From contig NZ_PYGE01000007.1 of the NCBI RefSeq assembly GCF_003014555.1, positions 124,001 to 188,000 of the forward strand: DNA of 64,000 nt, written 5' to 3'. Origin of the DNA: Haloactinopolyspora alba. GTDB taxonomy: Bacteria > Actinomycetota > Actinomycetes > Jiangellales > Jiangellaceae. Position numbers and translations under genes: made by a program. Below, in pieces: positions 19,450 through 32,156 of the stretch (its first letter is position 1; the number at the start of each line of letters is the position of its first letter). Below the pieces are notes generated by a model. The model was not told the origin of the DNA. It worked only from the letters and a program-made list of their open reading frames with translations, and ran no database searches.

Positions 19450-20280
19450 TCATCGCAGCAGTTCTTCGGAGCGGTCCCAGAGCCGGCGGGCCAGGACGGC
19501 GTCGTCGGCCTGCCGGTTCGTGCGCTTCGCGGGCCGGCGCTTCTCGTAGTACGTGCCGGACTCCCACTCCACGCCGGGCCGGCTCTCGGCGAGCCAGGCC
19601 AGCTGGTCGGCGCCCTTCTCCGGGGTGGTCAGCATGGCGCGGGTGATGCGGTTGGTGGTGATGAACCTCATCAGCCGGCTCTCGGACCGGGTGCCGAAAC
19701 TCGTCGCCACGTTGCCCGGGTGGAAGGCGGCGGCGGAGAGGCCGTGGGAGTGGTATCGGCGGTGCAGTTCCCTGGTGAACAGGATGTTCTCGAGCTTCGC
19801 CGCGTTGTAGACGCGTACCGGGCCGAAGTTCCGGTCGTGGTCGAGGTCGTCGACGTCGAGTGTGTCCGCCATGCGCGCGCCCACGCTCGAGGTCTGGATC
19901 ACCGTCGCGTTGCTGGCGACGAGCGTGTCCGTCAGGAGCTTGGTGAGCAGGAACGGCGCCAGGTGGTTGATCTGGAAGGTCCGCTCGAAGCCGTCGGCGG
20001 TCTTGGCGCGATCGCCGAAGACACCGCCGGCGTTGTTGGCGAGCACGTCGATGCGCGGGTAGGCGGTGCTCAGTTCGCCGGCGAGCTCGCGGACGTCGTC
20101 GAGGCGCGTGAAATCGGCGACGTAGTGGTCCACGCCGATCTCGGCGGCGACGGCGCGGGTCTTCTGCGGCGAGCGGCCGACGATGGCGACGCGGTGGCCG
20201 TCCCGGTGGAGCATGCGGGCCGCTGCTGCGCCGATGCCGTCGCTGGCTCCGGTGACGACGATGGTCTTGCCCTCGGTCAT
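19450..20280 (-). CDS. short-chain dehydrogenase/reductase (retinol-dehydrogenase-like)
   Basis: A 276-residue SDR with the cofactor motif TGASDGIG at residues 10-17, NNAGG, and the catalytic TSSVG and YNAAKLENI (Tyr-x3-Lys). The long form with a C-terminal tail of about 40 residues resembles retinol dehydrogenase or WW-domain oxidoreductase relatives. It is divergent from a TetR gene with a shared 100-base control region containing a palindromic operator, which suggests that the TetR protein represses it. Substrate unknown. Confidence 0.88.
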   Translation of the reverse strand: MTEGKTIVVTGASDGIGAAAARMLHRDGHRVAIVGRSPQKTRAVAAEIGVDHYVADFTRLDDVRELAGELSTAYPRIDVLANNAGGVFGDRAKTADGFERTFQINHLAPFLLTKLLTDTLVASNATVIQTSSVGARMADTLDVDDLDHDRNFGPVRVYNAAKLENILFTRELHRRYHSHGLSAAAFHPGNVATSFGTRSESRLMRFITTNRITRAMLTTPEKGADQLAWLAESRPGVEWESGTYYEKRRPAKRTNRQADDAVLARRLWDRSEELLR

Positions 20281-20335
20281 TGGTCTTCCCCTCGTGGCTG
20301 AACCGACGCTTGCAGATGACAGCGTACGCCTAGGA

Positions 20336-20350
20336 TGGCAGTTACTGTCA
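20336..20350. promoter_or_regulatory. candidate TetR operator
   Basis: TGGCAGTTACTGTCA is a 15-base palindrome with six of seven paired positions. A second TGTTACTGTCTG copy lies at 20,365-20,376, and an ATGACAG at 20,316-20,322. The cluster sits between the divergent SDR and TetR starts, as expected for autoregulation plus control of the SDR gene. Confidence 0.55.
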
Positions 20351-20382
20351 TTCTGGACGGAGCCTGTTACTGTCTGGGCATC

Positions 20383-20994
20383 ATGAGCGAGAAACAGCGC
20401 GATCTCCGGGAGCGCACCCGTCGGGCGGTGCGGAACGAGATCGCCGAGGCCGCCAACGAGCTGTTCGTCGAACGCGGCTTCGAGGCCACGACCATCGACG
20501 ACATCGCCGCAGCCGTCGGCATGTCCCAGCGCAGCGTCTTCCGCTACTTCTCGTCCAAAGAGGAGGTCGTTCTCGGCAAGTTCGACCTCGTCGTGGACGA
20601 CATGCTCGCCGCCCTGCGTGCGCGCCCGGCCGACGAGGCGGTCTGGACGTCGCTGCGCCGAGTGTTCGACGTGCTGACGTCCTTGGCGGAGATGCCGGGC
20701 AGCGTCCGGATGGTGGAGCCGATCCATCGAATGGTCTTCGAGACTCCCGTGCTGTTGGCCGGTTACCTGCAGAAGCTGCAGCACATGCAGGACGCTGTGG
20801 TCGCCGAACTGATGGATCGCGCCGAGGCGGCCGGCACGCCCTACGCCGCCGACGATCCGACGCCCCGCGCCCTCACCGCCGCGGCGTTCGGGTGTCTCGT
20901 GGCCGCGCAGCACTCCTGGCTCGCATCCGGCGCGCAGGGTTCGTTCACCGATGCCGTCGACCGCGCCATGGCCACCGTCGGCCCGCGCGCCTGA
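20383..20994 (+). CDS. TetR-family transcriptional regulator
   Basis: A 203-residue repressor with a typical TetR helix-turn-helix: ANELFVERGFEATTIDDIAA, then VGMSQRSVFRYFSSKEEV. The ligand-binding half is alpha-helical with no recognised ligand. The ATG at 20383 is used because the upstream codons run through the operator region. It probably controls itself and the divergent SDR-YbaK-oxidoreductase unit. Confidence 0.9.
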   Translation: MSEKQRDLRERTRRAVRNEIAEAANELFVERGFEATTIDDIAAAVGMSQRSVFRYFSSKEEVVLGKFDLVVDDMLAALRARPADEAVWTSLRRVFDVLTSLAEMPGSVRMVEPIHRMVFETPVLLAGYLQKLQHMQDAVVAELMDRAEAAGTPYAADDPTPRALTAAAFGCLVAAQHSWLASGAQGSFTDAVDRAMATVGPRA

Positions 20995-21067
20995 CGTCCG
21001 CGCCGCATCGTGCCGGCGGCCGTGACGCGGCGCCGGATCTCGGCGCGCCGTCGGTGAGCGTTCGGTG

Positions 21068-21098
21068 TTGACGGGCTGTCGGTCCCGAGGTGTACAGT
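21068..21098 (+). promoter_or_regulatory. candidate sigma-70-type promoter of the HEPN gene
   Basis: TTGACG at 21068-21073 is followed by TGTACA at 21091-21096 (17-base spacing; TACAGT at 21093-21098 gives 19). A start of transcription near 21,103 would fall just before the LexA box, so a bound repressor would block promoter escape. Confidence 0.55.
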
Positions 21099-21108
21099 CT
21101 TCAGCGTA

Positions 21109-21124
21109 TCGAACAAAAGTTCGA
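21109..21124. promoter_or_regulatory. LexA-type SOS box
   Basis: TCGAACAAAAGTTCGA is a perfect match to the actinobacterial SOS box TCGAAC-N4-GTTCGA. It lies 21 bases upstream of the GTG start of the HEPN gene and just downstream of a good -10 region, the normal arrangement for LexA repression. Confidence 0.92.
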
Positions 21125-21145
21125 ACGGCATGTTCGGAGGCGACG

Positions 21146-21664
21146 GTGACAGTTGAATTCCAGCAGGTCAGCAGGGCGACGCACGGTTCGGACGCGTCCC
21201 GGCCCGGGCGCTCGCGCCCACCGATGGGGCACGCCACGCTGGACCTGATCGATCAGGCGCGGGCGTGCCTGGCGGAGTCCGCGACGGCGGGCACGGCGAA
21301 CGACCGGTTCGTCGCGGCGCACCTGGGCGCGCTGCGAGCGGCAGCGGCGGTGCTGGCCGCGCGGGCGCGGCCGGTCAACCCACGCCGCTCGGGGCGCAGC
21401 GCGCGGCGCGGCCACGGCCCGCGGAACGTGTGGGAGCTGCTCCCGGGGGTGGCGCCCGAGCTGTCCGAGTGGGCCGCGTTCTTCGCCGCCAACGCGGGGA
21501 AGCGGTCGGCGGCTCAGGCGGGGCTGCGCTCGGCGGTGACGGTCCGCGAGGCCGACGATCTGCTGCGCGACGCGGACGCGTTCCTCGGCCTCGTCTGCGT
21601 GCTGCTGGGCCTGCCGTATCAGGAGCCGGTGGACGTCTGCGTGGTCGCCACCGCGCACGAATGA
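21146..21664 (+). CDS. SAV_6107-type HEPN-domain protein, SOS regulated
   Basis: A 172-residue helical protein that I recognise as the SAV_6107 HEPN group from HATLDLIDQARACLAES, the RFVAAHLGALRAAAAVLAAR block and WAAFFAANAGKRSAAQAG. HEPN domains often act as RNases or RNA-binding modules; a possible R-x5-H pair occurs in RSARRGH, but its position relative to the helices is not proven. The GTG start has GGAGG five bases upstream. The perfect SOS box makes it a DNA-damage-induced gene. No translesion polymerase gene is adjacent, although dinB lies 9 kb away. Confidence 0.8.
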   Translation: MTVEFQQVSRATHGSDASRPGRSRPPMGHATLDLIDQARACLAESATAGTANDRFVAAHLGALRAAAAVLAARARPVNPRRSGRSARRGHGPRNVWELLPGVAPELSEWAAFFAANAGKRSAAQAGLRSAVTVREADDLLRDADAFLGLVCVLLGLPYQEPVDVCVVATAHE

Positions 21665-30710: not shown

Positions 30711-30754
30711 AATGATCACGCTCCGCATGGAATTCCATGCGGAACGTGATCATT
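30711..30754. terminator. 44-base palindrome at the dinB stop
   Basis: The sequence is a palindrome with one mismatched pair, centred on GGAATTCC, and with AATGATCAC at its outer ends. The dinB TGA (30750-30752) lies in it. It would terminate leftward dinB transcription before mprA. Confidence 0.85.
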
Positions 30755-32156
30755 CCGAAAGGGCTTGGGGGTGGGGGCGGGCTGGGGAGAGTGCGGGGTC
30801 GTCGGCGGCGAACGTGCGCACCGGGCCGGGCGGTGTGCCGGCGGTCTCGAACCGGACGGTGACCCGGCCGAGTCCGCTGCCCCAGACCCAGCCCGGGCCG
30901 TGCTCGTCGTGCACGACGTCCATGCCGGGCACCCACGCCTGCGTCTCGTGCAGGAGTTCGCCGACCCGGACGTCACCGGCACGGTCACCGTCGCTCGGCA
31001 CCGCGTCGGCCGGCGCGTCCTCGCCCGACGCCCCGTCGGTGCGCACGCCGACGAACCCGCCGGCGGACCGCTCGCCGGGGTCCTCGGCGGCCTCCGGCTC
31101 GGTGCCGAACAGATCGTCCTGGACCCAGTCGGACAGTCCGGAGACGCCGACGCCGAGCAGCCGGACACCACCGGTGACGTCGATCTCCGACAGCAGGCGG
31201 GACGCGACGCGCGACACGGTGCGCGGGTCGTCGGTGGGAGCGGGCAACGTGGCCGATCGCGACAGCGTCGTGAAGTCGTGGAGCCGGGTCTTGAGCGTAA
31301 TGGTCCGCCCGGAGTGCCCGGATGCGTTCATCCGCTCGGCCAGCTTCTCGGCCAGCCGCGTGACCAGCGCCGCCAGCAGCGTCGGGTCGGTGACGTCACG
31401 ATCGAAGGTGTCCTCGACGCTGATGGATTTCGATTCGCGCTCGGTGCTGACCGCCCGCTCGTCGCGGGCCCGCGCCAGCCGGTGCAGCATGCCTCCGTGT
31501 GCAGCGCCGACCAGGTCGACGAGGTCGGGCTCGGTGATACGGGCCAGGTCGCCCACCGTCTTCACCCCCAGCCGCGCCAGCCGAGCCGCCGTGGCCGGAC
31601 CGACGCCGGGCAGCGCGCGCACGCTCAGCGGGTGCAGCACGTCGAGCTCGGCGCCGGGCTCGATGACGACCATGCCGTCGGGCTTGGCCTGTTCCGAGGC
31701 GATCTTCGCCATGAGTTTCGACGACGCCACGCCGACGCTGGCGGTGACGCCGGTACGTGCGCGGATGGTGGCGCGCAGGTCGTCGGCGAGCTTGCGGACC
31801 GGGCCGGGGGAGAGGTCGGGCAGGTCGCTGCCGCCGAGGTCGACGAACGCCTCGTCGAGCGAGAGCGGCTCGAGCAGCGGCGAGATCGCGCGCAACTGGT
31901 CCATGACGAACTCGCTGACCTCGCGGTAGACGGCGAACCTGCCGGCCAGGTACGCCGCGTGCGGGCAGCGCGCCCGGGCCTCGCTCATCGACATGGCAGA
32001 GCGGACACCGAACGTGCGCGCCTCGTAGGAGGCGGTGGACACCACCCCGCGCGGGCCGATACCGCCGACGATGACCGGCCGACCGCGCAGCGACGGCTTG
32101 TCGCGCTGTTCGACCGATGCGAAGAACGCGTCCAGGTCGAGGTGGAGGACGCGCAT
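30750..32156 (-). CDS. dinB: DNA polymerase IV (DinB), with actinobacterial C-terminal extension
   Basis: A 468-residue Y-family translesion polymerase. Catalytic acids are in LHLDLDAFFASVEQ at residues 4-17 and SLDEAFVDL; the fingers SYEARTFGVRSAMSM and the little-finger domain TLKTRLHDFTT follow. QDDLFG at about residue 380 fits a sliding-clamp-binding motif. A linker and a final 55-residue domain (WVPGMDVVHDEHGPGWVWG) extend beyond the canonical end; such tails occur in other actinobacterial DinB proteins. No SOS box is present in the 182 bases upstream. Confidence 0.95.
   Translation of the reverse strand: MRVLHLDLDAFFASVEQRDKPSLRGRPVIVGGIGPRGVVSTASYEARTFGVRSAMSMSEARARCPHAAYLAGRFAVYREVSEFVMDQLRAISPLLEPLSLDEAFVDLGGSDLPDLSPGPVRKLADDLRATIRARTGVTASVGVASSKLMAKIASEQAKPDGMVVIEPGAELDVLHPLSVRALPGVGPATAARLARLGVKTVGDLARITEPDLVDLVGAAHGGMLHRLARARDERAVSTERESKSISVEDTFDRDVTDPTLLAALVTRLAEKLAERMNASGHSGRTITLKTRLHDFTTLSRSATLPAPTDDPRTVSRVASRLLSEIDVTGGVRLLGVGVSGLSDWVQDDLFGTEPEAAEDPGERSAGGFVGVRTDGASGEDAPADAVPSDGDRAGDVRVGELLHETQAWVPGMDVVHDEHGPGWVWGSGLGRVTVRFETAGTPPGPVRTFAADDPALSPARPHPQALSE

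Follow-up and report, generated by a model that had tools for sequence, protein, structure and literature searches.

A SAV_6107-type HEPN gene with a conserved LexA box and its proposed link to translesion synthesis in Actinobacteria

The gene for a SAV_6107-type HEPN protein in the window, i.e., the whole 64-kb stretch of Haloactinopolyspora alba DNA analyzed here, is best explained as encoding a LexA- and PafBC-induced, non-catalytic HEPN accessory of translesion synthesis, a reading to which we assign a probability of roughly 55%. The LexA box, the promoter motif, their spacing and conservation, the operon membership in other families, the HEPN fold and the missing RNase motif were read from sequence; from these features we infer that LexA and PafBC bind here, that the gene is induced in this organism and that its product acts as an accessory.

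Damage-responsive elements upstream of the HEPN gene

The locus comprises five features, listed here in their order along the window:

21076-21098, plus strand: PafBC/RecA-NDp-type promoter, CTGTCGGTC-8 nt-TACAGT, with 10/12 matches to tTGTCRgtg-8N-TAnnnT
21109-21124, plus strand: LexA (SOS) box TCGAACAAAAGTTCGA, a perfect palindrome at or just past the expected transcription start
21136-21140, plus strand: ribosome-binding site GGAGG
21146-21664, plus strand: HEPN_SAV_6107 protein gene, GTG start, 172 aa
21741-22652, plus strand: PAC2-family protein gene, the next gene, after a 76-bp gap

The first-pass annotation had described a perfect LexA site between a promoter and the HEPN gene, and the comparison with TCGAAC-N4-GTTCGA bears this out, as TCGAACAAAAGTTCGA agrees at all 12 of the 12 defined bases. 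It is the sole perfect LexA site in the window, where a first-order Markov model predicts about zero; genome-wide (5.5 Mb), five perfect sites were found, versus none for a reversed control pattern. The open reading frame called at 21065 runs across the box and is too long, so that the GTG at 21146, preceded by GGAGG at 21136-21140, is the likely start; GGAGG or GAGG ahead of the start is kept in most relatives in the alignment of same-family loci. The window genome has a single lexA, and the sites of this gene (TCGAACAGATGTTTGA) and of recA (TCGAACACCCGTTCGG) each differ from the motif by one mismatch, which makes its recognition by the host LexA plausible.

Perfect boxes were also observed elsewhere in this genome. 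One (L002:1501-1516; G000:C4:226664) lies approximately 120 bp 5' of a gene for a 465-aa protein that starts with a LuxR-like helix-turn-helix, a possible further SOS gene. The two others (L001:1501 and L004:1501) are situated one within a coding region and one directly ahead of a 496-aa minus-strand gene.

A stronger argument for a real box than its rarity in the window or the genome is its conservation across relatives. Twenty same-family loci include upstream sequence; the box is perfect in every one of them, and the first following start codon lies 2 to 23 bp away. In a wider set of 80 loci, drawn from 32 actinobacterial families, a perfect box was detected within 1.6 kb upstream in 65 and a one-mismatch box in a further 12, so that 77/80 have no more than one mismatch. 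The density of perfect sites points the same way, with 65 in 126 kb of upstream sequence versus 2 in 724 kb elsewhere in the same loci. Streptomyces carries the HEPN gene with a box that is degenerate at best, and the S. venezuelae LexA paper nowhere mentions HEPN.

The promoter called by the first-pass annotation is present, but its type is better described as PafBC/RecA-NDp than as standard. A sigma-70 scan identified no standard promoter ahead of the HEPN gene, and the PafBC/RecA-NDp reading fits better than an assignment to TTGACG with a 19-bp spacer. The motif tTGTCRgtg-8N-TAnnnT is the published RecA-independent damage promoter used by the activator PafBC (PMC5656591). The alignment of same-family loci revealed that TTGTCGGTG-8 nt-TAnnnT is kept upstream of the LexA box; 10-12 of the 12 motif positions match in 20/20 of these loci, and the motif start and the box are 32-34 bp apart, 33 bp in the window. 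Scores of at least 10 were obtained in 28 of 81 wider loci, versus none of 2608 background windows. The window genome also contains a tandem WYL gene pair resembling PafB/PafC (L031), and its recA bears both the PafBC motif and a LexA box, as does mycobacterial recA with its two damage elements (PMC8223512). The HEPN gene is thus probably controlled by two damage pathways, LexA and PafBC. As other families retain the LexA box but lack a good PafBC motif, dual control is probably a trait of the window's family and several others rather than of all.

A precedent for damage control comes from Corynebacterium glutamicum, in which cg2381 belongs to the LexA regulon and is induced by ciprofloxacin with an M-value of 3.86, equal to that of recA (PMC5055667). 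A PF18726 gene is present in C. glutamicum, and the gene is single-copy in all 60 Corynebacterium genomes positive for PF18726. In Corynebacterium species, the genes after HEPN are DUF3040 and MraZ, in this order; as mraZ is cg2378 in C. glutamicum, position and single-copy status indicate that cg2381 is very probably the PF18726 HEPN gene. With the site and this precedent, the earlier suggestion that the gene is induced by DNA damage is strengthened, and we consider this regulation very likely.

Fold and conserved residues of the HEPN protein

The assignment to the SAV_6107-type HEPN family was confirmed by a match to Pfam PF18726 (HEPN_SAV_6107; E = 6.7e-33, 113.6 bits versus a cut-off of 27.2); no PADLOC or NCBIfam model matched the protein. 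AlphaFold modeling (pLDDT 84.5, confident for most of residues 27-158) predicted helices at residues 29-47, 51-73, 95-102, 104-115, 117-124 and 133-153. A structure search with this model supported the HEPN fold that the first-pass annotation had presupposed: the top match was 2hsb (2.4 Å over 117 residues), followed by 1ufb, the sacsin HEPN domain and 1wol; the best Z-scores, all for HEPN proteins, were 15.7 (2hsb), 13.4, 13.4 and 12.7, clearly above those of unrelated bundles. Searching the PDB by sequence yielded marginal matches only for the family (2hsb, E = 0.69), and the assignment to HEPN is therefore based on Pfam and the fold.

The RNA cleavage proposed earlier is not supported by the sequence. 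The canonical Rx4-6H motif was found at residues 110-145 in 0 of 38 and 0 of 40 rows of two alignments (78 rows, with the window protein common to both), and the SAV_6107 family is tabled as lacking it (Anantharaman 2013, PMC3710099). A string that fits the motif pattern, RFVAAH (residues 54-59, R54-x4-H59), was rejected as an RNase motif, because its position is in helix 2 and it is not conserved family-wide; in several families, Tyr or Gln takes the place of H59. In the weak alignment with 2hsb (E = 0.69), the motif Arg of 2hsb lies opposite R120, its Asp, which replaces the catalytic His, opposite position 124 (Glu/Gln), and the alternative His of AF0298-type HEPN proteins opposite the invariant R64. 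Strong conservation outside the RFVAAH string is mostly found at R64, W96, W109, F113, R120, G126, R134, D137 and R141, a pattern that would fit binding better than catalysis.

Gene neighborhood and translesion polymerases

A survey of the class (393 genomes) detected PF18726 in 246, almost always as a single copy, and outside the class the family is matched only weakly. Loci beyond the class (L086-L094) hold very weak relatives (E = 1e-7 to 1e-5), and those inspected had no LexA boxes of the actinobacterial HEPN-gene type. One further locus (L115), labeled as a Spirochaetaceae MAG, is an actinobacterial HEPN locus whose protein shares 78% identity with that of L068, and is probably a misbinned contig.

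In the window's own family, the HEPN gene stands alone as an SOS unit; the PAC2 gene lies downstream of it in 20/20 same-family loci and may be co-transcribed or co-induced with it. An SDR gene and a TetR gene (window approximately 19450-20994) are situated between YbaK and HEPN; neither is matched in the short flanking sequences of same-family loci, and they therefore look like a local insertion.

Elsewhere, the HEPN gene is frequently associated with translesion polymerases. ImuB-C (DUF6504, PF20114) is immediately upstream in 42 of the 80 loci and DnaE immediately downstream in 39; DnaE lies within 5.5 kb in 48, and some translesion polymerase is nearby in 61. The commonest order is [LexA box]-ImuB-C-HEPN-DnaE-(methyltransferase)-DinB-DUF3040, and [box]-HEPN-methyltransferase-DinB is another. 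Using the window genome's own ImuA' and ImuB as queries, we identified [box]-HEPN-ImuA'-ImuB-DnaE2 operons, with HEPN as the first gene, in families f18 and f37, while family f31 has an ImuB-DnaE2 pair just upstream of a HEPN gene with its own box. With at least three arrangements seen, two kinds of polymerase module have joined the HEPN locus. Approximately half of the surveyed loci share an operon with dnaE2 and imuB or imuB-C. Part of the DinB linkage could reflect an old conserved order, YbaK-HEPN-methyltransferase-DinB-DUF3040. Locus L270 has no DnaE2 between HEPN and the methyltransferase, and carries a second perfect LexA box at +1885 from HEPN, ahead of methyltransferase-DinB.

The DnaE of the ImuB-C operons reached the cut-off of neither the DnaE1 nor the DnaE2 model. 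It forms a clade of its own in a tree that, being rooted on one DnaE1, shows separate clades and not their order, and the PHP-domain residues kept by DnaE1 are substituted. Such substitutions are a DnaE2 trait, and a DnaE2B group has been tied to ImuB-C in Actinobacteria, e.g., Arthrobacter alpinus (PMC12926913); by its sequence, the operon DnaE appears to fit this group. A presence/absence comparison of HEPN and DnaE2 was uninformative, as nearly all Actinomycetes have two dnaE genes. DnaE2-bearing Actinobacteria without HEPN exist (e.g., genus g9), and about two dozen HEPN-positive genomes, some of them incomplete, have a single DnaE; thus, DnaE2 does not depend on HEPN in every genome, and HEPN may function in the absence of DnaE2. 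ImuB-C (DUF6504) likewise occurs in HEPN-free genomes.

In the window genome, imuA'-imuB (contig C25) and dnaE2 (contig C3) both lie apart from the HEPN gene, and a perfect LexA box is located directly ahead of imuA'-imuB (G000:C25:3894-3909; L026, L311). The dinB in the window (approximately 30753-32156, minus strand) has no LexA box, as noted in the first pass; the best site near its start has four mismatches. The conclusion drawn there, that the SOS response may reach beyond translesion synthesis, is not upheld, given the perfect box of imuA'-imuB and the presence of HEPN in polymerase operons of other families. A second dinB (L308, G000:C32), which stands behind a small methyltransferase-like gene, has a palindromic site with two mismatches, GCGAACATGTGTTCGT, 8 bp before its start.

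Proposed role and comparison with known systems

We hypothesize that the gene product is a non-catalytic HEPN protein produced solely upon DNA damage. LexA, bound to the box at the transcription start, would block the gene until its cleavage is triggered by RecA assembled on single-stranded DNA, and PafBC, activated by single-stranded DNA, would recruit RNA polymerase via the TGTCGGT...TAnnnT promoter. The protein would then work with error-prone polymerases, namely DnaE2 with ImuB-C, DnaE2 with ImuA'-ImuB, and DinB, probably by binding a protein of the polymerase complex or nucleic acid via an invariant Arg- and Trp-rich surface. As the HEPN gene is apart from imuA'-imuB and dnaE2 in the window genome, any such cooperation there would be in trans. 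Judged by gene association, the odds for a mutasome role are about even. A broader version, which we put forward tentatively and at somewhat less than even odds, is that SAV_6107 HEPN proteins are an unrecognized class-wide subunit or manager of DnaE2 mutasomes of both the ImuB-C and ImuA'-ImuB types, controlled by LexA and PafBC and built on a catalytically dead domain recruited from RNA biology.

If true, this would give a role to a HEPN family so far without one, and would add a gene at whose compact promoter the two damage pathways of Actinobacteria converge. In the literature, certain actinobacterial DnaE2 polymerases are tied just to a stand-alone ImuB-C, with neither ImuA nor ImuB; for their recruitment, a small gene between ImuB-C and DnaE2 under the same SOS box is an obvious candidate for the missing partner.

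Among the other explanations, the one we rate highest, while still considering it unlikely, is a damage checkpoint or regulator, acting for example on cell division or nucleoid state and merely co-expressed with translesion polymerases. SOS regulons often include a lineage-specific division inhibitor, which favors this role, and it would also fit the HEPN-DUF3040-MraZ order in Corynebacterium, with the Corynebacterium and ancestral site beside mraZ and the division cluster, as well as the status of HEPN as a single SOS unit in the window's family; a division role does not, however, predict that DnaE2 modules joined the locus in at least three arrangements. Somewhat less probable is that the protein, along the lines of the RNA-targeting factor suggested in the first pass, acts upon damage as an RNase or slows translation by binding RNA. 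The HEPN fold, shared with many RNases, and the R-x4-H string formed by R54 and H59 speak for it, but the canonical motif is missing at the right place in 78/78 rows, in agreement with Anantharaman 2013, the alternative AF0298-type His falls opposite the invariant R64 in the weak 2hsb alignment, and H59 is changed to Tyr or Gln in several families.

We regard two further explanations as highly improbable. Membership of the HEPN superfamily would allow the toxin of a HEPN-MNT toxin-antitoxin pair or an SOS-controlled defense module, yet the gene is flanked by TetR and PAC2 genes in the window and, where the arrangement is the commonest one, by ImuB-C and DnaE, with no nucleotidyltransferase among the neighbor genes identified; moreover, the gene is single-copy at a fixed chromosomal locus across the class, PADLOC gave no match and the catalytic motif is missing. 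The second would be a fortuitous box, with the HEPN gene outside LexA control in this organism, but the box, its spacing and the second damage promoter are kept in 20/20 relatives, and cg2381 provides a precedent.

The preferred reading, a damage-induced accessory of translesion synthesis, can be set against several known systems. One of these, cg2381, is the same gene by position and family and is induced by ciprofloxacin alongside recA, lexA and divS, but it is a conserved hypothetical protein in PMC5055667, its PF18726 identity being our own assignment. The HEPN-M (SAV_6107) family of Anantharaman 2013 is the same Pfam family, actinobacterial and without Rx4-6H, described there with neither operon context nor regulation. 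The mycobacterial recA promoter region, with its PafBC P1 and LexA elements, likewise places both damage controls on one gene, whereas at the HEPN gene the LexA box directly follows the PafBC -10 element within a single compact promoter. The genes of the putative DnaE2B-[ImuB-C] module flank HEPN in the commonest operon; the main text of PMC12926913 does not contain the word HEPN, and the window genome has instead the canonical ImuA'-ImuB and DnaE2, located elsewhere. The ImuA'-ImuB-DnaE2 mutasome is similarly SOS-controlled, and HEPN heads its operon in families f18 and f37, but many DnaE2-bearing genomes are without HEPN. To our knowledge, mycobacterial mutasome work names no HEPN component.
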